A stretch of DNA of 64,000 nt from Chryseobacterium sp. VAUSW3 (GTDB lineage Bacteria; Bacteroidota; Bacteroidia; Flavobacteriales; Weeksellaceae), in assembly GCF_002205795.1 (NCBI RefSeq), contig NZ_NIUY01000004.1, positions 111,783 through 175,782 of the forward strand. Direction: 5' to 3'. The stretch's first letter is position 1; every line of letters begins with the position of its first letter. Positions 5,304-64,000 of this stretch are shown piece after piece. The translations under genes and the position numbers were made by a program. The notes under the pieces were generated by a model. It saw only the letters and a program-made list of their open reading frames with translations. It searched no databases and was not told where the DNA came from.

Positions 5304-7688
5304 ATGAAATTTACTTTCAATATCCTGTTGATCTTTTTTGGATTAACCTTCATCAGCGCACAGCAAACATTTAAAATTCAGGGCAAAATTATCGATTTTC
5401 ATGATAAAGTTCCGCTCAAAAACGCCGTTATCAAAATAGGAAATTATACCGAAACTTCGGACCATAACGGGTTTTTCAGTTTCAGTTCCGTGAAAAAAGG
5501 GAAGTATGCCATTACCGCAACCCATCCCGATTGTGAGGCCTATACTGATCAGATCACTGTAAATGATAATCTGGAAATCACCCTTAATCTTGAACATCAT
5601 ATATCAGATATCGAAACGGTGGCCATTCACGCCGCGCATAAAAAGTCGACTCCTTTAATTATCAGGACATTAGATAAAAAAGAAATCGAAAGAAATTCCA
5701 CCGAAAATCTGGGGAATGTTTTATCGGGAATTTCTGGAGTCAGCGCTCTGAAAACCGGAAATAATATCGCAAAACCTATTATTCATGGACTTTACGGAAG
5801 CCGGATTTCAATCATCAATAACGGGGTGAAGATGGCCGAACAGGAATGGGGCGTCGAGCATGCACCGAATGTGGACATTACCCATTTCGAACATATCGAT
5901 GTCATAAAAGGTGCATCTGCGCTGAAATATGGCAGTGATGCAATCGGCGGTGTTGTTTTGCTGGTTCCTGAAATCTTCAAAAAAATTGATACGCTGAAAG
6001 GGTCTGCGAATGTCTCCGGGATTTCCAACGGACGCCGAATCGGTGTTGACCTGAATGTGGTAAAAACCTGGGAAAATGGTTGGGCCGTGAAAGCTAACGG
6101 AGGCTACAAAAAACTTGGCGACCTGGAAACTCCCAATTATCTGTTGATGAACACGGGGATGAATTTTAATTCTTTTGGTTTTACGGTGCAAAACAACAGT
6201 TTCCTTCAGGGAATATCGGCGGATTACAGCATGACGGGTCAGGAAATCGGTATTTTCCGAGGTTCCCATATTGGTAATCTTGAGGATTTTTATAAGGTAT
6301 TAAATTCTGACCTTCCCATTTACACGAGGGATTTTTCTTACTCGATCGACAATCCGAAACAGCAGATCCAGCATCATTTGGCTAAAATTTCGGCTTACAA
6401 AAGATTTAAAGATTTGGGGAAATTTTCTGTTGATTACAGTTTTCAGTACAATCACCGCAAAGAGTATGATTTAAGAAGAGGCGAACTTTCAGAAATTCCG
6501 TCGCTCGATCTGGAACTTTTCACCAATAATCTGAATATTACCAACTTAATTGAAAGAAAAAACTGGAATCTGGAAACTGGAATCGATGTGAGTTACCAGT
6601 ACAATTACTCCACGCCACAAACAATGGCCAGAAGACTGGTTCCAAATTATTCGAAATATTCGGGTGGAATGTATTCTGTCCTCAAATACAGAATTAATCC
6701 AAAACTGAATGTTGAAGGCGGTTTGCGTTATGACCACACAAAGTATAAGGTAAAAAAATGGTACGATGAAAATGACTGGAATAACCTTTACGCTGGAGAT
6801 TTTGCAGAATTTTATGTAGAAAACGATGGAAACAGGGTTTTTACAAAGCCGGTTTTAACGTACAGAAATCTGTCTTTTAACGCGGGTATAGATTTAAATC
6901 CCTCAGAAAATTTCAGTCTCAAATTCAACTACGCGAAAGTGGCAAGAACACCCAATATTGCTGAACTTTTTGCGGACGGACTCCATCATTCTGCCGCGGT
7001 TCTCGAACTTGGGAACATGCGCCTGAAAAATGAAGAAGGCAACCAGTTCAATCTTAACATCGATTCTAAATTTAATGTTTTGGGAGGTCTGCAGCTTTCA
7101 GTGAATCCTTATTTGTTTCTTACCAAAAACTTTATCAACCAAATTCCGACGGGAATTCAGAACACCATCCGCGGCGTTTTTCCGGTTTGGAGTTATGAAC
7201 AGATTGATGCGAGAATGTTCGGAGTTGATTTCGATGCGCAGCTGAAAATCAATAATGATTTCACCTATAGAGGAAGATTTGCGTACGTAAACGGTAAAGA
7301 TCAAACAAATAATCAGCCATTAATCCTCATGCTGCCGCCGAACTTTGCAAACAGTATTGAGTTTTCAAAACCGGAATGGAAAAACTTCAATTTCAAAATC
7401 GAACACCAAACCTTCCTGCAGCAAAAGGAATATCCGCTTTTTAATCCTACCATAAACGTATATGAAAATGGGGAAGAAGTAGAGAAAACCCTCGATTTAT
7501 CTACACCGCCGCCAGCTTATGCTTTGTGGAGCATACAGACTGGCTTCAGATTAAATAAGCATTTTTCTGCCGGTTTGAATGTGACGAATCTTTTCGATAA
7601 AAACTACAGGGATTACCTGAACAGGATGCGTTTTTTCTCTTATGAAATGGGCAGAAACATCATTTTCAATGTAAAATACAACTTCTAA
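5304..7688 (+). CDS. TonB-dependent outer-membrane receptor
   Basis: A 794-residue active-transport channel of the outer membrane, energised by TonB/ExbBD. A signal peptide ends near FISAQQ; a CarboxypepD_reg-like beta domain follows (about 22-105), then the plug (about 115-225, with the GIHGLYGSR-like and GSDAIGGVV segments) and a long beta-barrel ending in an aromatic residue (NVKYNF). The barrel stretch ELFADGLHHSAAVLELGN resembles the equivalent segment of ZnuD-type receptors, and the upstream protein is histidine-rich, so zinc or another metal is the best guess for substrate. It is not a SusC protein: it is short and no SusD gene follows. Confidence 0.88.
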   Translation: MKFTFNILLIFFGLTFISAQQTFKIQGKIIDFHDKVPLKNAVIKIGNYTETSDHNGFFSFSSVKKGKYAITATHPDCEAYTDQITVNDNLEITLNLEHHISDIETVAIHAAHKKSTPLIIRTLDKKEIERNSTENLGNVLSGISGVSALKTGNNIAKPIIHGLYGSRISIINNGVKMAEQEWGVEHAPNVDITHFEHIDVIKGASALKYGSDAIGGVVLLVPEIFKKIDTLKGSANVSGISNGRRIGVDLNVVKTWENGWAVKANGGYKKLGDLETPNYLLMNTGMNFNSFGFTVQNNSFLQGISADYSMTGQEIGIFRGSHIGNLEDFYKVLNSDLPIYTRDFSYSIDNPKQQIQHHLAKISAYKRFKDLGKFSVDYSFQYNHRKEYDLRRGELSEIPSLDLELFTNNLNITNLIERKNWNLETGIDVSYQYNYSTPQTMARRLVPNYSKYSGGMYSVLKYRINPKLNVEGGLRYDHTKYKVKKWYDENDWNNLYAGDFAEFYVENDGNRVFTKPVLTYRNLSFNAGIDLNPSENFSLKFNYAKVARTPNIAELFADGLHHSAAVLELGNMRLKNEEGNQFNLNIDSKFNVLGGLQLSVNPYLFLTKNFINQIPTGIQNTIRGVFPVWSYEQIDARMFGVDFDAQLKINNDFTYRGRFAYVNGKDQTNNQPLILMLPPNFANSIEFSKPEWKNFNFKIEHQTFLQQKEYPLFNPTINVYENGEEVEKTLDLSTPPPAYALWSIQTGFRLNKHFSAGLNVTNLFDKNYRDYLNRMRFFSYEMGRNIIFNVKYNF

Positions 7689-11008: not shown

Positions 11009-11917
11009 TTAAATATTAAAGTTATAATAACCCTGGAGTTTGAAAAGGATGAGACTGAAAATAATCAGCCACAATCCGGTTTCCTGCATCCAGTATTTGG
11101 GTAAAAATTTCAGCATTCTGCTTAAAATAATGGATGCCGGAAAAGCAAGCAAGAGCAGGTACTCGTAATGTTTCCCCATATACAGCATAATTGTAATCAA
11201 CTGCGACAGCGAAAAAATCAGCAGAAATGTATATTTGAATTTGCTTGTCGGGCTTTTCTTGTTAAAGTTCCTGAAATGATCCATCACCGCATGAAGCAAC
11301 ATCAAAACTACAGGAAGCAGCCACAGCAAACCTTCGATATTTTCGGAAGGTTTGAAATCTCCGAACGGAAAATAAGCCGGATTCCAGGAATTCATTCCCA
11401 GAAAATAGGCAATCCCAAGATAAGAGATTCCCACCAGAAAAATGCCATAAAAAAGCCTGAAAATATGCAAACCAATACGGTCTGAAGTTCCTATAATATG
11501 CAAAATCAGAAAGATCGACATCGGCCAGGTGGTCGGCAGAAAAATGAAATTCAGCGCCAATATTGCCCCTACGAGGGGATAAGAATTTTTGCGGACGCTC
11601 ATGTCCACATTAGTCAGCAGAATCAGAATGATAGAATTGGTAAAAAGAGAAACCGCGATTCCTATATCGAGATCACCGGGATACAGTGCAAAAATAAATG
11701 CGGTATATAAAAATAAGGGCAAATGCGTCTGGTAATTCAGGGCAATCGTGTTAAAACAGAAATAGCCCATGGCTACGCCTGCAAAAGTAATTACCGCGGA
11801 AAAAAAATCTAAAGTATTGAGGTCGAGAAAGTTGAAGCCGATTACAATTAAAAGTAGTACGCCGATGTAAAATGGTATTGAAAAAATATTGCTTTCTTTT
11901 GAAAGTAATCGAAACAT
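11009..11917 (-). CDS. polytopic membrane protein, DUF6427-like
   Basis: The 302-residue protein is hydrophobic throughout with about nine to ten predicted membrane helices, from NIFSIPFYIGVLLLIVIG to the C-terminal LWLIIFSLILFKL. It resembles DUF6427, a Flavobacteriia membrane family of unknown function; the assignment is from memory of the family and its neighbourhood next to a DUF6341-type gene. It heads the unit with DUF3109 and MgtC. Its -7 box (11934-11941) faces that of the divergent small gene. Confidence 0.7.
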   Translation of the reverse strand: MFRLLSKESNIFSIPFYIGVLLLIVIGFNFLDLNTLDFFSAVITFAGVAMGYFCFNTIALNYQTHLPLFLYTAFIFALYPGDLDIGIAVSLFTNSIILILLTNVDMSVRKNSYPLVGAILALNFIFLPTTWPMSIFLILHIIGTSDRIGLHIFRLFYGIFLVGISYLGIAYFLGMNSWNPAYFPFGDFKPSENIEGLLWLLPVVLMLLHAVMDHFRNFNKKSPTSKFKYTFLLIFSLSQLITIMLYMGKHYEYLLLLAFPASIILSRMLKFLPKYWMQETGLWLIIFSLILFKLQGYYNFNI

Positions 11918-11931
11918 TTTTATTAATTTTG
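11898..11931 (+). promoter_or_regulatory. promoter of the small DUF6341-like gene
   Basis: TTTG (11898-11901) and TAATTTTG (11924-11931) are separated by 22 bases, close to the Bacteroidota -33/-7 arrangement. The -33 part lies inside the start of the divergent membrane-protein gene. Confidence 0.55.
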
Positions 11932-11933
11932 TG

Positions 11934-11941
11934 CAAAGTTA
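11934..11941 (-). promoter_or_regulatory. -7 box of the DUF6427-like membrane protein operon
   Basis: The minus strand reads TAACTTTG, two bases from the plus-strand -7 box at 11924-11931 and 16 bases before the start codon at 11917. Confidence 0.5.
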
Positions 11942-11959
11942 ATTTAAAAAAGGAAAATA

Positions 11960-12190
11960 ATGACGTCTTTCTTTCTCTTCTTAAGCGATGTATTCAAGTG
12001 GTCTTTCGGTTTGTTTGATGCAGCAGGTAATGTTCTTAACTGGATTCTGTTTCTGGTAGCATCAGCTTTATTTACCTATTGGTGTTATGTACTGCTGGTA
12101 ACTTTAGGTGGCGACAAAGACAAAGAATATTTTTCACCAACTGAAGGGCATCATCCTTATTACGATCCGAAGATCCACAAAAAAGACTAA
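11960..12190 (+). CDS. small membrane protein, DUF6341-like
   Basis: A 76-residue protein with two hydrophobic segments (about 2-15 and 27-50) followed by a hydrophilic tail GDKDKEYFSPTEGHHPYYDPKIHKKD. This layout matches the small Flavobacteriia family DUF6341, usually found beside the DUF6427-like membrane gene, as here. Function unknown. A purine-rich AAAGGAAAAT lies just before the ATG. Confidence 0.72.
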   Translation: MTSFFLFLSDVFKWSFGLFDAAGNVLNWILFLVASALFTYWCYVLLVTLGGDKDKEYFSPTEGHHPYYDPKIHKKD

Positions 12191-12216
12191 AATAATTGAT
12201 ACTTATCTTCATAATA

Positions 12217-12246
12217 AAATCCCGAAATTTTATAATTTCGGGATTT
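12217..12246. terminator. terminator between the small membrane gene and uspA-like gene
   Basis: A perfect 13 bp stem, AAATCCCGAAATT with its complement, closes a 4-base loop; it lies between convergent genes. The T run after it is broken. Confidence 0.8.
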
Positions 12247-12268
12247 ATAATTTCGTTACTTTCAATTA

Positions 12269-12703
12269 TTAATGGATCGGAATTACAAGCACTGGAATCG
12301 TCGAGCGTCTTGTAAGTTCCTTGGTTAAACTGCCCACAAATACATCATAAATTCCGCTTCTTCCGTGCGAACCCATTACAATGTAATCAGCGTTTTTTGA
12401 TTTGGCATATTCCAGAATAATATCTCCGGCCACACCTTGTTTCAAAAGATGTTCGCAATCCACATCCTGTGCGATAATGCGCTGTTCAATTACATTCAGC
12501 CGCAACAACTCATCTTTAATTTCATTTTGCTCCACCTCAGGGAAATACTGGAAGCCCATGTCGCCTATAGCGAAACCAATATCCGCCGGCGCTACATGAA
12601 TAAGACAGATTTTTCCTTTTGTTTCTTTAGCGAATTTTACGGCACCATCAATAAGTCTGTCGGTTGCGTCTGAAAAATCTACAGGTAATACGATGTTAAT
12701 CAT
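12269..12703 (-). CDS. universal stress protein, UspA family
   Basis: A single Usp domain of 144 residues: N-terminal NIVLPVDFSDAT strand-loop, and the C-terminal nucleotide-binding signature GSHGRSGIYDVFVGSLTKEL, of the GxxGx9GS type that binds ATP. Such proteins accumulate under starvation or stress and act in the cytoplasm. It is the last of four genes on the minus strand (pssA, exonuclease, FAH, Usp) separated by 43-55 bases. Confidence 0.92.
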   Translation of the reverse strand: MINIVLPVDFSDATDRLIDGAVKFAKETKGKICLIHVAPADIGFAIGDMGFQYFPEVEQNEIKDELLRLNVIEQRIIAQDVDCEHLLKQGVAGDIILEYAKSKNADYIVMGSHGRSGIYDVFVGSLTKELTRRSTIPVLVIPIH

Positions 12704-12758
12704 GATCTTAATTTTTGTTCCTTAAAGTTACAAAAGTTTCTGCAAACGGTCAAGTAAT

Positions 12759-13367
12759 TTACTGAATTCTAAGATCTAATACTTTCTGTTCTTCAAGAAA
12801 AGCCTGCAGAATGTCGTTTTCTGCCACTTTTCCAACTCCCTGCGGCGTACCGGTAAAAATAAGATCTCCGGTTTTTAGAGTGAAGTATTGTGATACGAAA
12901 GCGATAATTTTTTCCGGAGAGAAAATCATCAATGAAGTGTTGCCGTCCTGAACCTTATCTTTGTTTTTAAGTAAAGAAAAATTCAGGTTCTTCATATCGA
13001 AACTGCTCTTTTTATAAAATTCTGAAACTACAGCGCTTCCGTCGAAACCTTTGGCAAGTTCCCAGGGAAGTCCTTTTGCTTTCAGCTGGCTTTGTAAATC
13101 CCGCGCCGTGAAATCAATTCCCAACCCTATTTCTTCGAAATAATTCGAAGCTTTGTGTTCCTGGATGTATTTTCCGCCTTTCGAGATTTTCAGCACGACT
13201 TCCAGTTCATAATGCACATCATCAGAAAATTCGGGAATATAAAAATCCGAACCTTTCTTTAGGATTGCCGTGTCGGGTTTCATGAAGATTACAGGATTTT
13301 CAGGGATTTCATTTCCGAGTTCTTTGGCGTGTTCGGCATAATTGCGGCCGATGCAGATGATTTTCAT
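12759..13367 (-). CDS. fumarylacetoacetate hydrolase family protein
   Basis: The 202-residue protein is the single-domain FAH fold: start KIICIGRNYAEHAKELGN, metal-binding HYELEVVLKI with the conserved Glu pair, and the C-terminal TGTPQGVGKV loop. Family members cleave or decarboxylate acylpyruvates and oxaloacetate with Mg or Mn; the substrate here is unknown and there is no aromatic degradation cluster nearby. Cytoplasmic. It lies 43 bases after the exonuclease gene. Confidence 0.88.
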   Translation of the reverse strand: MKIICIGRNYAEHAKELGNEIPENPVIFMKPDTAILKKGSDFYIPEFSDDVHYELEVVLKISKGGKYIQEHKASNYFEEIGLGIDFTARDLQSQLKAKGLPWELAKGFDGSAVVSEFYKKSSFDMKNLNFSLLKNKDKVQDGNTSLMIFSPEKIIAFVSQYFTLKTGDLIFTGTPQGVGKVAENDILQAFLEEQKVLDLRIQ

Positions 13368-13410
13368 TCGCTTTAATTTTTATTGATGAATTTAAAGTCT
13401 CTAATCATGT

Positions 13411-14175
13411 TTAGAATTTAGAACGAAGCTGAATTCCCGTTAGGACTTTTTTTGTATACAGAGGAAAATCCGCATTCTGAATCCAGCCGTAATAGCCCAG
13501 ATCTTTTTGGAATACATCTTTCACCCTTTGTCCTTTATATTTCCCGAAACTGAAAACTTCTTTTCCATCTTCATCGAAAGCAATAAATCCGGCCAAATCT
13601 GCAAATTTATGATGCGAGGAAAATTCACTTAATGCCGCGATTTCGTTCGGTAAATCTTCGTAATAACCCACTTGCGCGTCGAGAACTTCAAATGTCGCCA
13701 ACACATCAGCTTCCGCAGAATGCGCGTTTTCGAGGTCTTTTTTACAGTAGAATTTGTATGCTGCAGTTAAATTTCGGGGTTCCATTTTGTGGAAAATGGT
13801 CTGTGCATCAACAAGTTTGAATTTATTCAAATCGAAATCGATACCCGCTCTTAAAAGTTCTTCTGCCAGAAGCGGAACATCAAACCGGTTCGAGTTGAAG
13901 CCGCCTAAATCGGTTCCGGAAATCATTTCCATTACTTTTGGCGCAATTTCACTGAATTTGGGTGAGTTTTTCACGTCTTCGTCGCTGATTCCGTGTACCG
14001 CTGTAGATTCTTTCGGGATATACATTTCCGGATTTACAAGCCAGGTTCTGCTTTCGCGGGAAGCGTCAGGATTTACTTTCAGGATACTGATTTCAACAAT
14101 GCGGTCTTTTGCAACGTTGGTTCCCGTCGTTTCCAGATCGAAGACACAAAGCGGTTTATAAAGTTTTAAATTCAT
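13411..14175 (-). CDS. DnaQ-like 3'-5' exonuclease
   Basis: The 254-residue protein carries the DEDDh exonuclease motifs: VFDLETTGTNV (Exo I, Asp and Glu at about 13-15), NSNRFDVPLLAEEL (Exo II) and HSAEADVLATFEVL (Exo III His and Asp). The C-terminal 80 residues, FSFGKYKGQRVKDVFQKDLGYYGWIQ, form a small domain also seen in stand-alone exonucleases of Bacteroidota. It could proofread or trim DNA or RNA; it is not fused to a polymerase. Shortly downstream of pssA. Confidence 0.88.
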   Translation of the reverse strand: MNLKLYKPLCVFDLETTGTNVAKDRIVEISILKVNPDASRESRTWLVNPEMYIPKESTAVHGISDEDVKNSPKFSEIAPKVMEMISGTDLGGFNSNRFDVPLLAEELLRAGIDFDLNKFKLVDAQTIFHKMEPRNLTAAYKFYCKKDLENAHSAEADVLATFEVLDAQVGYYEDLPNEIAALSEFSSHHKFADLAGFIAFDEDGKEVFSFGKYKGQRVKDVFQKDLGYYGWIQNADFPLYTKKVLTGIQLRSKF

Positions 14176-55498: not shown

Positions 55499-55603
55499 TC
55501 AGCGGTCTGTAAATTGAAGGTAGATTAAAGTGCCCGCCGCGGCAGTCATAATAACCAGAGCAACAGATCCCAGGATGCGTTCGGTTTTTTTATTCAGTTT
55601 TGT
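55499..55603 (-). pseudogene. possible remnant of a core membrane protein at the array boundary
   Basis: A frame without ATG start reads KKTERILGSVALVIMTAAAG then a short hydrophobic tail ending FTDR and a TGA at 55499-55501. It contains one good membrane segment and overlaps the end of the esterase-like gene in another frame. It could be the 3' end of a chromosomal gene cut by the accessory array, or a chance open frame. The remaining bases between 55390 and 55500 hold only the UMP synthase promoter. Confidence 0.35.
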
Positions 55604-56408
55604 TTAGTGTCCAAATAATTGCTTTTTCTTTTGTTGCTCTAAAAATTGTTGTGTGCTTCTCTTTTGGTTCGTCAGAAAATTTCCATTTTATATTATTTCG
55701 ATTTTCAGTTTTCAAGATTTTAGCTAATTCTTTTGTGTAAGGCGAAATGTCTTCTGCATTTGAACCTGCAAACCAAATCCGTTTTTCTGTTATGGGGAAA
55801 TTTGCTAAATGTTCTTTTGCTGTCCTTACTAAATAATGATTGTTCCACCAAAGTGAAGGGTCAAAAGCGATATAATTGTCAAACATTTCGGGTGTCAGGA
55901 AAAATGTTTCCATTACAAAAAGTCCTGATGCAGATTCTCCAATGATACTTTTTTCAGTCGTTGTTCTGTATCGTTTGTTAATTTCAGGGAAAAGTTCGTC
56001 TTTGATAAAGGCTCTAAACTTGTCTGAACCACCAACAACTGGTGCAATTTCTTTGTCTTTTGCTACTTCTGTAAAGCCCGTCAAATCTCTTCTTCGTTGA
56101 GTATTTTCAATTCCGACAAGTATCAAAGGTTTTATTTTATTTTCTTTAATCAGTTTAGCCAAAGTGTTTGCAATGTGAGGAAAGTCTTCTTTTATTCCTC
56201 CATCTGCCATATACATTACTGGCAAAGAGCCTTTACTTGTTTTATAATTTTCAGGTGTCCAAACGTTGATTACTCTTTTTTCTCCAACTTGTTTAGATTG
56301 AATTTTAAAAGTTTCGTGCTTTGGAATAGGGTCGTTCGGTTTTGATGCGTTTGAGCAACTTGTCAATGCTACAAGTATAAAAAGAAAGTTGTAATAAATG
56401 AATTTCAT
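55590..56408 (-). CDS. esterase-like alpha/beta hydrolase lipoprotein (cassette 6)
   Basis: The 272-residue protein has a lipobox (ALTSCSN, Cys18) and an alpha/beta hydrolase domain of the Fes/IroE/esterase-D type, with SLPVMYMADGG near the oxyanion region and the nucleophile elbow GESASG (157-162, Ser159); a C-terminal His in EKHTTIF fits the triad. It may cleave an ester on the cell surface; the substrate is unknown. It is the last gene of the array and lacks a downstream repeat. Confidence 0.82.
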   Translation of the reverse strand: MKFIYYNFLFILVALTSCSNASKPNDPIPKHETFKIQSKQVGEKRVINVWTPENYKTSKGSLPVMYMADGGIKEDFPHIANTLAKLIKENKIKPLILVGIENTQRRRDLTGFTEVAKDKEIAPVVGGSDKFRAFIKDELFPEINKRYRTTTEKSIIGESASGLFVMETFFLTPEMFDNYIAFDPSLWWNNHYLVRTAKEHLANFPITEKRIWFAGSNAEDISPYTKELAKILKTENRNNIKWKFSDEPKEKHTTIFRATKEKAIIWTLNKTE

Positions 56409-56460
56409 ATTTTCTGTTTTTTGTCTGTTAATATTTTGTAGGCTGTCGTTTTAAGCTGAC

Positions 56461-56593
56461 GCACAACGTTTTCGGGCTTTGCGTTCGGGCGGGTTTCGGA
56501 GCACAAAACTATCAACCAGCACTAACTTAAATAGAAGCACAAAGCTCCAAGTTTGCACGTCACCCCGCCTGACGCAAAACCCGTGTTGGTGGC
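56461..56593 (-). repeat. attC-like site F (short class)
   Basis: On the minus strand it starts with CACCAAC, has arms TTTTGCGTCAGGCGGGG and CCCGCCCGAACGCAAAGCCC and ends with GTTGTGC. The two arms pair as TTTGC/GCAAA and GCGGG/CCCGC around an internal loop. 133 bp. Confidence 0.65.
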
Positions 56594-56604
56594 TGGTGTT
56601 CTTG

Positions 56605-57534
56605 TCATTCGTTAATTTTTAGCACTACATTACCCTTTTTTCGTCCTGTGTCAACATATCTATGTGCGTCTATTATCTCGTCCATATGAAAGGTTTTGTC
56701 AATTACTGCATTTAACTCTCCTTTTTCAAATAGTTCTTTTAATAGTTGAAGTTGTTGTATGGTTTCCGAGGCATATCCTGAACTGACACTGTTATAAACA
56801 CCGCTTTCGTTCAAGAGATTTCTACATTCCTTTTTAGTGGTTTTACCAACAGCGTCAAAGATTATATCAAATTTGTCTTTTTGTTTGGTAAAGTCTTCTT
56901 TGTCGTATTGGACAATGTTCGTAACTCCCAATTCACGAACAAGGTTCTGTCCTTCAGAACTACAAACAGCGGTTATGTCAGCCTTGTAATGTTTTGCTAT
57001 TTGGATTGCTGCTGCCCCTACAGAACCCGTAGCCCCAATAATCAAAATTTTTGCGTTTGGTCGTTGGGCTATCTTTGCTTTATCCAAAAAGTGGATTGCT
57101 GTTTGTCCGCCAAAAATGATAGTTGCCGCATCTTCGAAAGTGGCATTGTTGGGCATTTCAATTACATTGCTTTTTTGATTGACGGCAATGTATTCTGCAT
57201 AAGTCCCAAATTTAAAGCCTGTCATACCGAATACCCTGTCCCCAACTTTGAATTTGGAAACTTTGTCACCAATACTTTCAACAACACCTGAAAAAACAGT
57301 CCCTAAAATAGGCTTTCTCGGCTTTGAAACACCTAAAACTAATCGCATAATCACTTTCATAAACCCCTTGACATCAAGACTTCTTACCCTAACATCTCCT
57401 GAATTTACTGCAGAAGCAATTATTTTGATAAGTAATTCGTTTTCTTTCGCTGTCGGCTTATTAACATCCTGAATTTGAAGAACTTCAGGCGGTCCGTATC
57501 TTGTGCAAATTACTGCTTTCATTTTGTCAGTCAT
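56605..57534 (-). CDS. NAD(P)H quinone oxidoreductase-like MDR protein (cassette 5)
   Basis: The 309-residue cytoplasmic enzyme is a zinc-free medium-chain dehydrogenase of the quinone-reductase type. It has the GroES-like domain (1-130), SAVNSGDVRVRS, PILGTVFSGVVESIG, VGDRVFGM, and the Rossmann motif GATGSVGAAAIQIAKH (167-182). Such genes are common cargo for electrophile detoxification. An alternative start is the Met at 57522. A decayed IS3 element lies between it and the upstream repeat, so its native promoter may be altered. Confidence 0.9.
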   Translation of the reverse strand: MTDKMKAVICTRYGPPEVLQIQDVNKPTAKENELLIKIIASAVNSGDVRVRSLDVKGFMKVIMRLVLGVSKPRKPILGTVFSGVVESIGDKVSKFKVGDRVFGMTGFKFGTYAEYIAVNQKSNVIEMPNNATFEDAATIIFGGQTAIHFLDKAKIAQRPNAKILIIGATGSVGAAAIQIAKHYKADITAVCSSEGQNLVRELGVTNIVQYDKEDFTKQKDKFDIIFDAVGKTTKKECRNLLNESGVYNSVSSGYASETIQQLQLLKELFEKGELNAVIDKTFHMDEIIDAHRYVDTGRKKGNVVLKINE

Positions 57535-57607
57535 TCTAAATCTTATTTTTTCATTCGTGATATTGTGTTTTGAAATTATTACTCACGTTTACGATGTCCT
57601 GTATTAT

Positions 57608-58590
57608 CCTGAAATAGTTGACACATTTTTTCAGTTATTTTGGTTTGTTAAAATTAGCATTTTTTTCGTTTGTAGGATTTATATTTTACATTTTCTTTGA
57701 GGTGCACTTTTGCAGGGGTTTGAAAATTGAGTGAAAAGTGCAATCGATGGTTGTTGTAGAGGTTTACAGCTTGCTGGGTCATTTTCTGAGCAGTTTTCAA
57801 ATCGGGTAGGGTTTCTTTTAATCCGTATTCGTACTTTAGAGTTCTGTTCATCCGCTCTGCAACAGCATTTTCATAAGAACTATGCTTAGAGTTGGTTGTT
57901 GTGATAAAATTCTTAGATTTTTTCACAAGCATTCCATTCCATTTTAACAGCTTAAAGAAGCGTCTCTCCCTATTTTTATTCCTTGCTGATGAAAGAAAAA
58001 AGAAAGCTCTTTAAAGACTTTTAATGTTTCATATTTGGGCTTAAGTTTGCGTATTTTGCGAACTTCGGAGAGAATTAATTCATACTGATGAGCCTGTGTT
58101 TCCAGATGCTTCATCCGCTTATAATAGCCTTGTCGTGATATCCCAAAGACTTCGGCTAGCCATCGTTTTTTACACGGTTTTTCTTCTTTTTCTCGAGTTC
58201 TTTTATCAAGTCTTTGGGTAAATGCTTTTTTGAGAGTTCCTTGACTATGATTTCCTCAAAATCAAGGATAAGATCCTGCTGAAAGTCTTTCAAAAACTCC
58301 AGTTCCTGGATTTCTCTTTTAGTTTTTTAATTTCCTGATCTTGACTCATGCCAATAGATTTTTGATTAAAGGTAGCTAATTTTTTCACCCAATAATCAAT
58401 TGTTGATCTGGATATTCCATACGTTTTAGCAGCATGATTGATAGAAATCTGTCCGTTGGTTACCTTTTGAACAATTTGAAGTTTAATCTGAAAAGGTAAT
58501 TTTTGATAGGTATATTTTTGACACCTAATGAATTTTTGTTGTTCCATAGTTTGACAATATTTAATGAATTTTTTGTCACCCTATTTCAGG
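57608..58590 (-). mobile_element. decayed IS3-family insertion sequence with internal deletion
   Basis: The element is bracketed by the inverted repeats CCTGAAATAGTTGACAC (left) and CCTGAAATAGGGTGACAA (right, minus strand). OrfA (58547) starts MEQQKFIRCQKYTYQKL and has an IS3 helix-turn-helix, ISINHAAKTYGISRSTIDYWV, then a frameshift. OrfB shows SRQGYYKRM and, at 57932-57654, NAVAERMNRTLKYEYGL with the IS3 C-terminal motif NLYNNHRLHFSLNFQTP. The DDE core between TTTNSKH and SYENAVAER is missing. About 980 bp; full IS3 elements are longer. No clear target duplication was seen. Confidence 0.8.
57654..58547 (-). pseudogene. IS3 transposase remnants (orfA and orfB, frameshifted, DDE core deleted)
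   Basis: Single-base losses break orfA (after EIKKLKEK) and the middle of orfB (after IGRD). One A-rich shift at about 58165 could instead be the normal programmed frameshift. The catalytic Asp-Asp-Glu residues are absent because of the deletion, so the element cannot move itself. Confidence 0.75.
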
Positions 58591-58610
58591 AATATGCATT
58601 TGGAATAATT

Positions 58611-58747
58611 GCAGCTAACGTTTTGCCGTTTTGCGAAGGTGGGGATTTTTAGCACTGAACGTTATTAGATGCACTAAGCTTGAATTTAGGACTTCACTTT
58701 CATAGAAGCACAAAACCCCCGCTTTTGCAAAGCGGCTGTTGTGTACA
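58611..58747 (-). repeat. attC-like site E (short class)
   Basis: On the minus strand it starts TGTACACAAC, has arms CGCTTTGCAAAAGCGGGGG and CCCCACCTTCGCAAAACGG and ends GTTAGCTGC. TTTGC/GCAAA and the G-rich/C-rich parts pair around AAAA/CTTC. 137 bp. Confidence 0.7.
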
Positions 58748-58852
58748 GTTTTCATGTGTTATTATTTATTTTTATGGGTCACATGGAATACGCCAGATTG
58801 GTTATAATATCATCTTCGGTTGGTGATTTGTTCCAATCATGGCTATTTCATC

Positions 58853-59767
58853 TCAAAATATCGATAACTGAGATTTTGTTGTAAACTCTTCAAGAAATTT
58901 TATCCCTTTATATGAATTTCCTTTTTCATTCAATTTCGGACTCCAAACTGCAATCGCATAATGATTTGGATGGATTGCAACAATCCCTCCTCCAACACCA
59001 CTCTTTCCAGGAAGTCCAACTTTAAAGGCAAATTCTCCAGATTCGTCATATAAGCCACAAGTTTGCATTAGTGCATTTATTCTTTTGCATTGGCTTTTGG
59101 TAAGTATCGAATTGTTAGCAAATGTGTTACAGCCATTGTTTGCTAAAAACAAAAATAATTCTGAAAGCTCTTTGCAATTCATTTCAAGAGAGCAAAGATC
59201 AAAATAGAAGTCAAGAACATCTGAGGGTTCATTTTCAATATTTCCAAAGGATTTAATGAAATTACATAATGCCACATTTCGAAATCCTACACTTTTTTCT
59301 GAAGCAGCTATTTTGCGTGAATAGTTTAATTCTGAATTATTGGAAATGTTTCTAATAAAAGATAAAAATTCTTCTTTTGGGTTTTTCAGATTGCTAAGTA
59401 GAATATCTGAAATAACAATTGCTCCAGCATTTATAAAAGGATTTCGAGGTATGCCTTTATCTGCTTCAAGTTGAACTAGAGAATTAAATGCTGTTCCTGA
59501 AGGTTCTACTCCAAGTCTTGTCCAAATTTTCTCGCCAAGAATACTATATGCTAAGCTTAGTGAAAGTACTTTTGCAATACTCTGAATCGAAAATTTTTCG
59601 TTAAAATTGCCAATACCAAAATTAGTGTGGTCAATTGTTGATATAAATACTCCAAAACTTTCCGAATCAACGTTAACCAACTCAGGAATATAAGATGCCA
59701 ATCGTCCTTTGTCATCTGTATTTTTAACCTCTTCATAGGTTGCCCTAACTATTTCTTCTAAATTCAC
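58853..59767 (-). CDS. glsA: glutaminase A (cassette 4)
   Basis: It hydrolyses glutamine to glutamate and ammonia. The 304-residue protein has the serine-dependent glutaminase fold: catalytic Ser63 and Lys66 in FSIQSIAKVL, then EPSGTAFNSLVQLE, NPFINAGAIVIS and a C-terminal SGEFAFKVGLPGKSGVGGGI. Glutaminases aid acid resistance in some bacteria through ammonia release. The start is a GTG at 59767 preceded by AAAAAAGAG. The cassette starts 17 bases upstream at the attC-like end. Confidence 0.93.
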   Translation of the reverse strand: MNLEEIVRATYEEVKNTDDKGRLASYIPELVNVDSESFGVFISTIDHTNFGIGNFNEKFSIQSIAKVLSLSLAYSILGEKIWTRLGVEPSGTAFNSLVQLEADKGIPRNPFINAGAIVISDILLSNLKNPKEEFLSFIRNISNNSELNYSRKIAASEKSVGFRNVALCNFIKSFGNIENEPSDVLDFYFDLCSLEMNCKELSELFLFLANNGCNTFANNSILTKSQCKRINALMQTCGLYDESGEFAFKVGLPGKSGVGGGIVAIHPNHYAIAVWSPKLNEKGNSYKGIKFLEEFTTKSQLSIF

Positions 59768-59784
59768 CTCTTTTTTAATTTAAT

Positions 59785-59983
59785 TGTACACAACGGGAAA
59801 AGTATTGGCGAAGTGCGGGCTAAATTGGACGAAAAGTTCAATTTAGACTAAACGTAGCCGATGCTTTTTTCGGATTGTCTAAATTAAGGAAAAAAACAAT
59901 ATGAAAAGCAGCGGCGGATAAAAAAGTAGAGTAGTTCAATTTTTTACTTCACCCCGCATTTTGCCAATACAATGTTATGCGTA
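59785..59983 (-). repeat. attC-like site D (long class)
   Basis: On the minus strand it starts TACGCATAAC, with arms TTGGCAAAATGCGGG and CCCGCACTTCGCCAA, and ends GTTGTGTACA. An inner second stem pairs GCCGATGCTTTT (59857-59868) with AAAAGCAGCGGC (59904-59915). 199 bp. Confidence 0.75.
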
Positions 59984-59990
59984 GTGTTGC

Positions 59991-60692
59991 TTATTCTAAT
60001 ATATATTTTATATTAACTTCTACTTCGAACTTTACTTTTTGAAATTCAGTATAAATTGGACTTTCAGATTTTGATCCATAAATACTTGACATTCCACGAA
60101 TTTTAACTCCAGGAGCTTGGCCTTGGAGAGCATTTGATATTGAATTAACATCAGAAATATAGATTGCCTTACCAATTTTTTGATTCAAAGGTTTAGCTAA
60201 TTTTTCTGCTGTTAATTTAGATTTCAAAACTGCTTTTGATTTTAATTCAAGTAATAATTCTTCGGCTTTTGAATATTCTGTTCGTTCTATATTAACATTA
60301 GAAATACCTACATTTTCAAGTTCAGCTAAAACTTTTCCAGCAGTTACAGCATCACTTACTAAAAGTGAGTACATTTTAGCTTTAATTACGTTTTGTCCTT
60401 TCATAAAATATTGCTTGAAATTACTTGAAAAGTCTAGTAGTGACAGATCTTTTTCGGTATTGATATTTAGCTTTTTTAATGTTGATTCTAATAATCTTTC
60501 CTGTTCTTCAACCGATTTTTTATTTTTTGAATCAGCTTCATTCAGATTTATGGAAGTATAAATTTTGTCAGGTACAACAAGAGAATCAAGTTTAGCACTA
60601 GTTTCTATAAAAGGTTGATCGATAAAATTTTTTTGAGCAAAAATATGATTTGCAGATAGAATACAAAATAATAGAAATAGTGTTTTTTTCAT
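59991..60692 (-). CDS. SIMPL (DUF541) domain periplasmic protein (cassette 3)
   Basis: The 233-residue protein has a signal peptide ending HIFAQ and an OMP_26/DUF541-like (SIMPL) domain: FIETSAKLDSLVVPDKIYTSINL opening, a central YSLLVSDAVTAGKVLAELENVGISNVNIERTEYSK, and a closing EFQKVKFEVEVNIKY. Function of the family is not settled (oxidative or membrane stress in a few cases). Residues 187-200, NALQGQAPGVKIRG, resemble the plug motif of SusC-type receptors, an unusual feature. It is tightly flanked by the two attC-like sites. Confidence 0.78.
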   Translation of the reverse strand: MKKTLFLLFCILSANHIFAQKNFIDQPFIETSAKLDSLVVPDKIYTSINLNEADSKNKKSVEEQERLLESTLKKLNINTEKDLSLLDFSSNFKQYFMKGQNVIKAKMYSLLVSDAVTAGKVLAELENVGISNVNIERTEYSKAEELLLELKSKAVLKSKLTAEKLAKPLNQKIGKAIYISDVNSISNALQGQAPGVKIRGMSSIYGSKSESPIYTEFQKVKFEVEVNIKYILE

Positions 60693-60726
60693 AGTTTTTT
60701 TCTTTTGACGTGAGTTTTGAAAACAT

Positions 60727-60861
60727 TACGCATAACGGTTTGCAGCTTGGCGAAGTGGCGGAAATCGAAGCTCAAATGTTCAGTTTTGCACAAAAGTTCA
60801 ATCGAAGAACTACCGTTGATTTAGCACTAAACCCGCCATTTTGCCAAACTGCTGTTGTGGG
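60727..60861 (-). repeat. attC-like site C (short class)
   Basis: On the minus strand it starts CCCACAAC, with arms TTTGGCAAAATGGCGGG and CCGCCACTTCGCCAAGC, and ends GTTATGCG. 135 bp. TTGGC/GCCAA and GGCGG/CCGCC pair around AAAAT/ACTTC. Confidence 0.75.
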
Positions 60862-60890
60862 TTCGCCCTTCTTTTCTGTCGTGTTTATTG

Positions 60891-62021
60891 TCATATAAGT
60901 GTTAATAAATAACCGATTAACGAACCGCCTAAAACTACAAATGCACTATTTAATTTCTTGTATCCAAATGCGATTGAAATACTTAAAACTGCAATTAAAA
61001 TTGTCCGCCAATCGGTAATGGTGTCCTTGCCCATTTCAAAACAAACGGCTACAATTATTGCGACTGATGCAACATTTACAGCGTCTAAAAATGCTGAAAA
61101 TAGTTTTGAATTTCGCATCTTCTTCACGATTGGGTTGAGCAATGCAACAAAAACAAACGATGGCAAAAATATAGCGATTGTCGAAACGATTGCACCTGTC
61201 AATCCGTTGATTTGATAACCAATAAAAGTAACCGAAGAAAAAACAGGTCCGGGTGTGAATTGTCCAACCGCAATGGCATCAATTAATTGTTGTCTTGTTA
61301 AAAGTCCTGTTGAAACCAATTCCGTGTCGAGAAATGCAAATAAAACATAACCGCTTCCGTAAAGTATTGCACCAATTTTTAGGAAAATCCAAAATAGATT
61401 GGCGTTGGTTGCAGAAAGGATTGTAGTGTTTGTTATTTGAAAAAAGGTTAATGGTAGAAAACTGTTGATATTGTTTTGCTTATTGTTTCGCACGTAAGCC
61501 AACATTAAAGCCATAAATCCTGCTCCAAACATCAAATAAATTTCGTTGATGCTGAATAGTGAACCAAGCAAAACAAGTAACCCAATAACTATTAGTTCAG
61601 TTGATTTTAGGGATTTTTTTGCCAATGGAAAAATTGCTCCTAAAATAATAGCAATAATGGCTGGTTTTATTCCGTAAATAAAGGGTTGCACTTCTGGAAC
61701 TTGTCCGTATTGTTTGTAGAGATAAGCAAAAATGCCAGTTATAAAAACGGCTGGTAAAATGAAACAAAGACCTGCAATTATTAAGCCTTTCCAACCGCCT
61801 TTTTCGTGTCCGATATGAATTGCCATTTCGGTGCTGTTAGGTCCAGGTATTAAGTTGGTTGCACCAATCAAGTCAAGAAAATGTTGTTCTGTTAACCACT
61901 TTCTTTTTGTAACCACTTCGTCTTGCATCATTGCAATATGTGCAGCAGGTCCACCAAAACCAATAATGCCCAGTTTTAGAAAGAGTTTGGCAATATCTTT
62001 TAAATCTGCTTTACTCTCCAT
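60891..62021 (-). CDS. chrA: chromate transporter family protein (cassette 2)
   Basis: The 376-residue inner-membrane protein has two tandem ChrA domains: LKLGIIGFGGPAAHIAMMQDEVV in the first half and GQFTPGPVFSSVTFIGYQ in the second, and about ten helices. ChrA exports chromate, or exchanges it with sulfate, in Pseudomonas and relatives. The start overlaps the end of the DoxX gene by 11 bases, so translation is coupled. Part of the two-gene cassette. Confidence 0.9.
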   Translation of the reverse strand: MESKADLKDIAKLFLKLGIIGFGGPAAHIAMMQDEVVTKRKWLTEQHFLDLIGATNLIPGPNSTEMAIHIGHEKGGWKGLIIAGLCFILPAVFITGIFAYLYKQYGQVPEVQPFIYGIKPAIIAIILGAIFPLAKKSLKSTELIVIGLLVLLGSLFSINEIYLMFGAGFMALMLAYVRNNKQNNINSFLPLTFFQITNTTILSATNANLFWIFLKIGAILYGSGYVLFAFLDTELVSTGLLTRQQLIDAIAVGQFTPGPVFSSVTFIGYQINGLTGAIVSTIAIFLPSFVFVALLNPIVKKMRNSKLFSAFLDAVNVASVAIIVAVCFEMGKDTITDWRTILIAVLSISIAFGYKKLNSAFVVLGGSLIGYLLTLI

Positions 62022-62442
62022 TCTTCTTCAAAATTTTGTCAGCCGACCAAAAACCACCGCCTTTAATTAGTAAAAATATACTTCCCAAAAGCATTGACCA
62101 ATCTGTTCTACTTCCGTGCATCATTTCCCAAAAACCTTTTTCGGCTAAAACTTCCGATTTGGTTGTTACAATGGCTACTAACATAATAATGATAAGTGGA
62201 ATACTTGCCAGTCTTGTAAAAAGTCCGACAAGAATAAGTAGTCCACAAACAATTTCAAAACCGCCAACAAAACTGCCTAGAAATTCAGGCGAAGGCAAGC
62301 CAATTTTTTCAAATCGTCCTGCTCCAAGTGTGTCAGCAAATAAAAATTTCTGAATTCCTTCGGAAAGAAATACCGCACCAACCATTAGTCGAATGAGGAT
62401 TGTCGTTTTAGAATTGTCAGTATTTAATATTCGGTTTTTCAT
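62011..62442 (-). CDS. DoxX family membrane protein (cassette 2)
   Basis: The 143-residue protein has four membrane helices and the DoxX pattern LIRLMVGAVFLSEGIQKFLF, GGFEIVCGLLILVGLFTRLASIPLIIIM and a WSMLLGSIFLLIKG close. DoxX proteins serve in quinone or thiosulfate oxidation and oxidative stress in some species; the role here is unknown. First gene of a two-gene cassette with chrA, overlapping it by 11 bases. Confidence 0.85.
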   Translation of the reverse strand: MKNRILNTDNSKTTILIRLMVGAVFLSEGIQKFLFADTLGAGRFEKIGLPSPEFLGSFVGGFEIVCGLLILVGLFTRLASIPLIIIMLVAIVTTKSEVLAEKGFWEMMHGSRTDWSMLLGSIFLLIKGGGFWSADKILKKNGE

Positions 62443-62486
62443 TTTTTGCTTGTCGGTTCATTGTTGCACACGGTTGGTCATAGGGT

Positions 62487-62685
62487 GACGCACAACGGAA
62501 AAAGTATTTGCGAAGGGCGGGCTTTCGAAGAACTAAAAGTTCAAGGAAGACCAAACGTAGCCGATATTTTTTCCATGAAGTAAACTTACATAAAAACTAC
62601 GAAATGGAAAAATAGCGGCGGCTAAGAATTACAAAAAGTTCAACTAAGACTTCCTCCCGCATTTTGCCAATACAATGTTATCTGC
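62487..62685 (-). repeat. attC-like site B (long class)
   Basis: On the minus strand it starts GCAGATAAC, with arms TATTGGCAAAATGCGGG and CCCGCCCTTCGCAAATA, and ends GTTGTGCGTC. The inner stem pairs GCCGATATTTTTTCC (62560-62574) with GGAAAAATAGCGGC (62606-62619). 199 bp. Confidence 0.75.
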
Positions 62686-62689
62686 AGGC

Positions 62690-63784
62690 TTAATTCAAAA
62701 ATCTTATAATTTCGAAAGTTCTAATTAATTTATACTTTGCTTTTTCTATCTTTTCAATGTTCATTTTTTCTTTAGTTCTGATTAGATAAGGTTCATTTGT
62801 AGCATTTAACTCATATTTTGCACCGGAGAAGTAGAATTTACCACTATATTTCTGTGAAATAATATCTAAGAATTCACAAATAGCATTATATTGCTCATCG
62901 TTGTTCCTTTTAACAGTTATAATAAATTCTTTGTCATCTATAATCCATTCTATTTCAAAATCTCTTGCTGTAATGAAATTATGTCCTACAGAAATTTCTT
63001 CAATATCATCTAAATTATATTTTATTTGTCTTTGTCCATCAATTCCTTTGTGATCAGGTATTGTATTTAGTCCAGATTTTGAGTAGGGAATTCCCATGTT
63101 TTTTTTACTCGCTATTATTCTCCATTCTTTTTCATATTGCCAATCATTAAGTTTTATATTTGACGCATAAGCTGTTGGAATATGAAAAGAACGAAAACTT
63201 GAAACATCAATTGGTTTAAGTTCATTCGTATAGTTAATAGGATGAAATCCAAATAGTTCTCCGTCATCATCATTAAGTTTATCTTTGATACTTTGAAGTA
63301 GATTTTTTACATTGAATTTGATTTGGAATCCTTTTTCTTGAGTATAATGAGGCCACATCAATGTATTGTTGTCTCTTTCTGTTAGTGAAATTATACCCAA
63401 CAAATTAAAGGACATATTATACATATGGTTAATGATTTTCTTACACTGATTAGATTCAACATCTTCAATATAAAAATCTTCTAATTCTTTTCTTGAATTG
63501 AAAATGTCTTTATAAAATTTCTCGTATATCTCAAATGAAATTGGTCGTGAAGAATAAAGTAAAATTGGACTACTGTCTAGAATATCATTTAATTCTATTG
63601 GATGTGATGCATATAAATAATTTTGTGATAATGCTTCAATATTATATTTAGATATTGAGTAAAATTTAAAAATTGAAACAGGAAGGTTATATTTATGAAC
63701 TATTTCGGGTAAATTTTCTTGAGCAGAATAATCTATTTTATATGTAAAATTATTGTACTCAAATTGTTCGGTAATGTTTGTCAT
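62690..63784 (-). CDS. DUF2971 domain protein (cassette 1)
   Basis: The 364-residue cytoplasmic protein matches DUF2971: FKFYSISKYNIEALSQNYLYASHPIELND (39-67), GIISLTERDNNTLMWPHYTQEKGFQIKF (130-157), then the YEKEWRI segment. DUF2971 genes are scattered, often in mobile regions and phage-defence neighbourhoods, but no activity is established. The ATG at 63784 was chosen because it lies just after the attC-like site. The gene is strongly AT-rich compared with the core. Confidence 0.8.
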   Translation of the reverse strand: MTNITEQFEYNNFTYKIDYSAQENLPEIVHKYNLPVSIFKFYSISKYNIEALSQNYLYASHPIELNDILDSSPILLYSSRPISFEIYEKFYKDIFNSRKELEDFYIEDVESNQCKKIINHMYNMSFNLLGIISLTERDNNTLMWPHYTQEKGFQIKFNVKNLLQSIKDKLNDDDGELFGFHPINYTNELKPIDVSSFRSFHIPTAYASNIKLNDWQYEKEWRIIASKKNMGIPYSKSGLNTIPDHKGIDGQRQIKYNLDDIEEISVGHNFITARDFEIEWIIDDKEFIITVKRNNDEQYNAICEFLDIISQKYSGKFYFSGAKYELNATNEPYLIRTKEKMNIEKIEKAKYKLIRTFEIIRFLN

Positions 63785-63790
63785 AAGCTT

Positions 63791-63984
63791 GCAGATAACG
63801 GAAAAAGTATTTGCGAAGGGCGGGCTAAATTTAACTGAAACTTCAATTTCGACCGAACGAAGCAAATTGCTTTTTCAGATTGTTAAATTACAAAAAAATA
63901 CAATATGAAAAGCAAGTTGCGACTGAATGAATCGGGTCTTCATTTTATATATTCAACCCCGCCTTTTGCCAATACTATCTTTAC
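63791..63984 (-). repeat. attC-like site A (long class), at the window edge
   Basis: On the minus strand the arms are TATTGGCAAAAGGCGGGG and CCCGCCCTTCGCAAATA, and it ends GTTATCTGC. The inner stem pairs GCAAATTGCTTTTTC (63862-63876) with GAAAAGCAAGTTGC (63907-63920). Its outer start reads GTAAAG instead of an AAC end. About 194 bp. A further cassette should lie beyond the window. Confidence 0.65.
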
Positions 63985-64000
63985 TTTACATCCATAAAAT

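Follow-up and report, generated by a model that had tools for sequence, protein, structure and literature searches.

What is the run of genes that closes a 64,000-nucleotide stretch of the Chryseobacterium sp. VAUSW3 genome (the window), and which enzyme could have brought these genes together? The array holds seven minus-strand genes, encoding an esterase, an oxidoreductase, a glutaminase, a SIMPL protein, ChrA, DoxX and a DUF2971 protein, and six related attC-like sites (window 56456-63990) that lie between unrelated genes of the same strand. An earlier note, made from the sequence alone, had described these genes, repeats and unrelated cargo, all of which we recovered with gene profiles and a site model, and had read them as an integron-type array or as a convergent system with another recombinase. 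The second option fits better, judged by a family cut-off, a signature domain and a tree. Chromosomal integrons, for example the Vibrio superintegron, consist of IntI, attI and attC; integrons are a main natural platform of gene capture and, to our knowledge, have been held to need IntI. We propose that the window very probably ends in an integron-type array whose cassettes are likely moved by a tyrosine recombinase of Bacteroidota, distinct from IntI.

In the proposed mechanism, a cassette would run from a 5'-TT arm through the gene and a hairpin-type site to a G-3', and cassettes would leave and enter arrays as circles through the action of a Bacteroidota tyrosine recombinase other than IntI. 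A recombinase encoded at the head of an array (P0001 type, described below) would perform the recombination, presumably on a folded single strand, like IntI, with the crossover between G and TT, and would also reach, in trans, arrays that have no adjoining integrase, such as that of the window. If the cut falls between G and TT, the arms at both ends of a cassette belong together, and the two arms of one site belong to different cassettes. We compared arms at 254 sites, drawn from 14 arrays or pieces of arrays, which gave 232 neighbouring pairs under 3.5 kb. These sites were typed out of 306 model matches, after removal of reverse-strand shadows, the L196 copy of the L195 region (three extra sites), the L199 sites, low-scoring matches, the opposite-strand sites L192:5303 and L193:7176 and six further sites. 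The end arm of the upstream site was perfectly complementary to the opening arm of the next site in 197/232 cassettes, with a mean of 5.77 out of 6 variable arm positions, whereas the two arms of one site matched at a mean of 3.22/6 and perfectly in only 15/254. Pairing with the wrong neighbour gave a mean of 3.06/6 (perfect in 8/232), and random pairing gave 3.04/6, with a maximum of 3.27 over 1000 draws. Four of the five window intervals match at 6, 5, 6 and 6 of 6 positions. Arm complementarity follows the cassette rather than the site, a pattern that would be hard to produce otherwise and leaves few alternatives to site-specific exchange of whole cassettes. The matching cassette arms place this exchange at GTT, to the motif rather than to an exact cut position. 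The longest reading frame reached at least 80 amino acids in 198/231 intervals, and 195 of these 198 frames were oriented with the array. The largest array counted, in genome G162, has 68 sites over ~100 kb and stands beside an integrase.

Read in the gene direction, a site opens with NNNNAAC, continues through a nine-bp L stem and an inner GC-rich stem, and closes with C-GTTNNNN. Since simple regular expressions gave many false site matches, we adopted arm matrices, followed by a covariance model. The arm matrix had no match in 1.02 Mb of shuffled sequence, and covariance modelling, a check that the earlier note had proposed, yielded 51 sites (E<=0.01) in the genome, on contigs C2, C3, C5, C6, C7 and C8; the site family exceeds what chance would give. 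Covariation was scored in 56 short sites from many genomes, chosen by the arm matrix and laid on a structure drawn by hand. In this set 96.1% of cells are paired, 15/20 hairpin pairs have changed on both sides, and double-changed cells number 206, compared with 67 in shuffles. The covariation score is 0.487 (0.111 in shuffled data, with 0/500 shuffles reaching the observed score) and drops under 0.1 when the partner is slid by 1-3 columns. R and L boxes of the attC type, with compensatory pairing, are present. A-C mismatches recur at two places of the stem, in 39/56 and 46/56 sites. The consensus of the classical integron R' arm is GTTRRRY; here GTT occurs in 251/254 sites, and GTTRRRY in 6/254.

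Four proteins of the window genome carry PF00589: a XerC-like protein, a XerD-like protein, an enzyme of the integrative and conjugative element (ICE) type on contig C6, and P0001. P0001 (376 residues, start chosen in an open frame of 426; C3:927978-929105, minus strand) is encoded divergently from a four-site array on contig C3, and the closest named record found, Chryseobacterium sp. HSC-36S06, has an integrase 98% identical to it. The integrase and the attI-like site that the earlier note had suggested looking for were both found there, on a contig other than that of the window. The earlier note had placed the platform to the right of 64,000, the point at which the window's contig stops. 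Residues R225, K250, H314, R317, H340 and Y349 are invariant in 15 aligned proteins, and we take them to be the catalytic R-K-H-R-H-Y of tyrosine recombinases. With PF00589 and these residues, P0001 qualifies as a tyrosine recombinase. Its predicted model resembles archaeal Xer (4a8e, 5hxy) and IntI4 (2a3v), with a predicted template modelling score (pTM) of 0.50, at which the likeness is to be read at fold level only.

Integrase homologs, defined at E<=1e-40, occur in 119/296 genomes of the window's family and in 23/33 genera. The site model matched in 211/296 of these genomes, per-genome site counts being lower bounds (<=10 candidates scored per genome). Sites were found in all 119 integrase genomes and in 92/177 others (Fisher p 1.6e-24, without correction for kinship). 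Among 40 fetched loci of three integrase groups, 31 have sites beside the integrase (group 1, 14/20; group 2, 7/10; group 3, 10/10), and in group 1 and group 3 loci with sites the array is divergent from the integrase. For 24 group 1 and group 3 loci with an identified first site, the arm of that attC predicts a 10-mer at the start of the first cassette. This 10-mer was present at 9-10/10 bases in 21/24 loci, <=200 bases from the integrase start. In 14/15 group 1 loci, that of the window genome among them, the bases preceding the cassette start are GCGTATATTTGAGA, followed directly by GTT, or a near variant; in 6/9 group 3 loci they are GCGTAAATTTGGAA or a close variant of it. The window genome and a sister genome whose integrase is 98% identical are nearly identical over ~250 bp up to GCATATTTGAGA, immediately before GTTA, and then carry different cassettes. 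An attI is recognisable beside the integrase gene, which is divergent from the array in two of the three groups.

Relatives of the window genome have other genes between such repeats, in line with a search that the earlier note had advised, and single window cassettes recur in them. The glutaminase cassette with site S2 (window 58601-59796) is found in sister genome G143 over 1196 bp at 98.9% identity. The match begins at CC|GTTGTGTAC, with the upstream edge between CC and GTT, and ends at ACGTTA; the flanks differ on both sides, and model sites lie at both cassette boundaries, each edge at a GTT arm. The G143 integrase is 98% identical to that of the window genome. Likewise, the ChrA-DoxX pair recurs in G100 (84% identity, upstream edge at a GTT arm), and the esterase cassette in a genome from a different genus, G052 (893 bp, 91%), where the match starts at C|GTTGTGCGTCAG, at the CGTT of S1. 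The near-identical glutaminase cassette in a different setting points to recent movement. The earlier note had held that its reading would be refuted if many relatives conserved the gene order as ordinary operons. When the 8.2 kb gene stretch was compared with 36 genomes of the genus, none of the matches listed extended over two cassettes, our own copy aside, the longest being 1609 bp, or one cassette. These data also bear on the idea that the inverted repeats are operon terminators, or elements like repetitive extragenic palindromes or miniature inverted-repeat transposable elements (REP/MITE), without any cassette exchange. The repeats are indeed intergenic, palindromic and present elsewhere in the genome, but this idea predicts neither arm complementarity that follows the gene, nor a conserved attI, nor a moved cassette with GTT-arm edges, and it does not fit the gene order, which is not kept among the matches listed for these genomes; we find it hardly credible.

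A second explanation is an orphan array, in which the window array would be an immobile remnant and P0001 would serve its own small array only. It is compatible with an integron-type origin, and it agrees with the lack of an integrase beside the window array, the last cassette without attC, the insertion sequence (IS) remnant, and the integrase-bearing array with four model sites on another contig. Cassette ends that still match at 5-6/6 in four of five intervals, the 99% identical glutaminase cassette in another setting, which points to recent movement, and the intact catalytic residues of P0001 speak against immobility. Trans action of IntI on distant attC sites is a feature of classical integrons. 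We regard an orphan array as rather unlikely, yet as the most serious of the alternatives considered. Taken by itself, the window array resembles a CALIN (cluster of attC sites lacking an integrase), and it differs from one in that a candidate integrase and attI are present in the same genome.

A third explanation is a canonical integron whose IntI was missed: the attC sites would be ordinary ones, and a normal IntI, encoded at another place in the genome or carried in by plasmids, would move them. The attC-like sites, the GTT/AAC arms and an SPLD-type C-terminal tail as in IntI1 would suit it, and canonical IntI does occur in other GTDB Bacteroidota classes (84/296 sampled genomes above the cut-off, including one from the window's class). 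Against it, all four PF00589 proteins fall under the 265-bit cut-off of the IntI profile TIGR02249 (P0001, 182.6 bits; the other three, 154.3, 84 and 49.7 bits), no member of the family or order was above it among the matches listed, and the arm GTTRRRY is rare at the sites, as given above. We consider a missed IntI very improbable. The best profile of P0001 is NF040815 (218.1 bits against a cut-off of 220). Its alignment with IntI4 falls into two pieces, with a gap at the position of the extra domain of IntI, and the IntI-specific domain is missing from 12/12 Bacteroidota proteins aligned with IntI1. A passage of PMC9668308 names this additional domain, near patch III, as defining, and PMC2426708 used it for selection.

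A tree of 73 of 149 extracted proteins places IntI in one clade (100/100) with the Bacteroidota enzymes outside, and the latter in another (81/81, not firm). Archaeal, Patescibacteria and Firmicutes enzymes stand nearer to IntI than the Bacteroidota clade does, and an exclusive clade of IntI and Bacteroidota enzymes was rejected by the approximately unbiased (AU) test (p 0.028). These relationships favour, short of proof, an independent origin of the Bacteroidota integrase from IntI. An SPLD-type tail ends 39/39 family proteins and 0/3 Xer proteins; a narrow tail pattern fits 6/34 IntI, and several IntI end SPVD-like. Integrases of groups 1 and 2 have an extra N-terminal domain of ~70 residues. 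This domain (L018:8855-9073 and homologs) has a predicted beta-beta-alpha-beta-beta-alpha order and a motif like RWSxxQKxWYVPDT; against Pfam and PDB it gave DUF5710 matches below the cut-off and a SMARCAL1-like HARP match at E 1.4. The comparisons strongly support a system that works like an integron, and by the integrase tests it does not belong to the IntI integrons.

Several observations weigh against a P0001-driven cassette system, and are gathered here. The window array and the integrase are on separate contigs, C5 and C3, and the literature searched contained no recombination assay for this enzyme. Of the 177 genomes without integrase at E<=1e-40, the 92 with sites include 30 with five or more. 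Nine of the 40 integrase loci have no adjoining site, two of them owing to a contig end, and in the seven group 2 loci with sites the integrase lies upstream of the cassettes and co-directional with them, a 'reverse' layout. In the attI test, L065, L088 and L094 reach only 8/10, L092 and L095 match at 10/10 in another context, and the second-best match is usually 7/10 and once 9. Two confident sites oppose their array (L192:5303-5442 and L193:7176-7315), and the window interval S2-S1, which holds the IS3-like remnant, matches at 3/6. In single-strand folding of five window sites (S6 excluded), gene-strand z values run from -0.62 to -3.95, and at S2 and S5 the expected stem differs from the minimum-energy fold; such folding of single window sites is unconvincing, and the structural case rests on covariation. 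Finally, the ICE-type recombinase adjoins an array piece on C6, mimicking an integron layout, which may reflect an island inserted at an attC.

That array piece (L019:574-4655) is on the minus strand, ~230 bp from the divergent recombinase, a protein of 405 amino acids with Arm-DNA-bind_5. By inference, with no search for their association with arrays in relatives, this enzyme and the housekeeping XerC and XerD were set aside as the engine. Group 2 comprises L076-L085, of which L076, L077 and L081 have an integrase gene without sites.

The features of the window array are collected below. The window forms the final 64 kb of C5, a contig in a genome of 2.63 Mb. The description in the earlier note needs correcting on two points: the esterase cassette is without attC, and the window stops exactly at the end of its contig, where the array is cut.

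Features of the window array. Positions are those of the window; limits of S1-S6 are those of the covariance model (141-204 bp, arms included).
Feature	Position	Strand	Evidence
Putative esterase gene, last cassette, own attC missing	55590..56408	-	PF00756; 91% DNA identity to L195:15319-16208
attC-like site S1	56456..56596	-	model R1, 107.7 bits
Zinc-type alcohol dehydrogenase / quinone oxidoreductase cassette gene	56605..57534	-	PF08240, PF13602
IS3-like remnant	57608..58595 (approximate limits from terminal repeats)	-	rve_3 and HTH_Tnp_1 matches, two short frames
attC-like site S2	58608..58749	-	model R1, 116.7 bits
Glutaminase cassette gene	58853..59767	-	PF04960; NF002133 above cut-off
attC-like site S3, long class	59783..59985	-	model R1, 62.2 bits
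SIMPL/DUF541 cassette gene	59991..60692	-	PF04402
attC-like site S4	60725..60865	-	model R1, 126.8 bits
Chromate efflux transporter ChrA, two-gene cassette with DoxX	60891..62021	-	PF02417; TIGR00937 above cut-off
DoxX gene, two-gene cassette with ChrA	62011..62442	-	PF07681
attC-like site S5, long class	62485..62688	-	model R1, 44.3 bits
DUF2971 cassette gene	62690..63784 (ATG start chosen; open frame to 63865)	-	PF11185
attC-like site S6, long class	63788..63990	-	model R1, 33.3 bits

DoxX and ChrA share one cassette. The degenerate IS3-family remnant is placed between S2 and the oxidoreductase gene, within a cassette interval whose flanking ends no longer match, and copies of this stretch occur several times in genome G137. 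Because homology of the esterase cassette to its other copy breaks off within the expected closing arm, the window copy has lost its attC. S6 is weak, and its outer arm, where the contig stops, is degenerate. Several sites apiece are present on the small contigs C2, C7 and C8, which is probably the reason for the fragmented assembly. Window 63978-64000 and C7:22-44 have 23 bases in common, adjoining degenerate site arms; this is perhaps the repeat that broke the assembly within the array. An Rfam search of the window gave no match above gathering scores, and comparison of window DNA with plasmids gave matches of site size only.

How does this system compare with those already known? With chromosomal integrons it shares co-directional cassettes, one structured site for each, an attI beside a tyrosine recombinase, exchange at GTT, arrays of up to 68 sites, and diverse cargo that includes toxin-antitoxin-like and restriction genes. 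It differs from them in a recombinase that fails TIGR02249, lacks the IntI-specific domain and, in groups 1 and 2, bears the N-terminal domain, in arms that fit GTT and rarely GTTRRRY, and in the recurrent A-C stem mismatches. Xer recombinases function in chromosome resolution. XerA and archaeal Xer (NF040815) give the best profile match and, with IntI4, are among the best fold matches, but cassette arrays and the SPLD-type tail set the present enzymes apart.

A passage of the IntegronFinder 2.0 paper (PMC9024848) states that nothing beyond integrase-without-cassette elements had been known for Bacteroidetes and adds one complete integron, in Salinibacter. According to an excerpt of the archaeal integron paper, IntegronFinder calls integrases by the IntI-specific domain. 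The taxon-specific attC models include none for Bacteroidota. Requirement of this domain would explain why the arrays have gone unreported. Part of a 2026 Chryseobacterium genome paper (PMC13063519), on a strain outside the present analysis, takes a negative IntegronFinder result to mean no integron-mediated capture. In the open PMC literature, which leaves aside preprints and most subscription papers, we found no description of this system, PMC13148043 being nearest.

In the portion of PMC13148043 considered here, aph(3')-IVb with an attC-like 140 bp 3' part enters the Riemerella anatipestifer chromosome without homology, and the paper says the same of lnu(H) and blaRATA. In ATCC 11845, relE, hthR and cdf flank the insertion. 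The mechanism is described there as 'yet to be fully elucidated'; attC-like site-specific recombination is suggested, and that portion names no integrase. The likeness to our system lies in a mobile unit of a gene and an attC-like 3' part, and in relE, hthR and cdf counterparts that stand together in the G052 array, in the order site, RelE-like gene, helix-turn-helix (HTH) gene, site, cation-efflux gene, site. Further along there is another RelE-like/HTH pair. Over 20 kb, the G052 array has eight matching plasmid records, three of R. anatipestifer including the best two; because its best plasmid matches are of this species, G052 is probably Riemerella, an assignment that does not establish its equation with ATCC 11845. 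The P0001-type integrase of G052 is nearly half a megabase from the array, so that action in trans would be needed. Sites of this type stand directly after lnu(H) on an Empedobacter plasmid (90.3 bits) and after tet(X2) on a Riemerella plasmid (115.1 bits).

On the Riemerella and Empedobacter plasmids L096, L097 and L099, sites adjoin lnu(H), tet(X2) and a pair of partial beta-lactamase-like frames that overlap. The G052 cargo (L195:2229-2856, 5359-6031 and 11463-14139) includes a DpnII-type restriction-modification set along with both RelE-like/HTH pairs, as is typical of large integrons.

We further put forward, as a conjecture to which we would give not quite an even chance, that this is a second integron system that evolved apart from IntI: a XerA-like Bacteroidota clade, some members with an added N-terminal domain, that independently came to capture gene cassettes by way of folded attC sites, builds arrays of up to ~100 kb, drives the uptake of resistance genes without homology in Riemerella and its relatives, and has stayed unseen since the tools require the IntI domain. 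As far as sequence comparison can tell, Bacteroidota likely have an overlooked gene-capture system. If so, capture of the attC type would be possible without the IntI-specific domain, and a large pool of unannotated cassettes would become accessible. Such a system could explain the uptake of resistance genes in the duck pathogen R. anatipestifer, whose homology-free DNA insertion would become directly testable.

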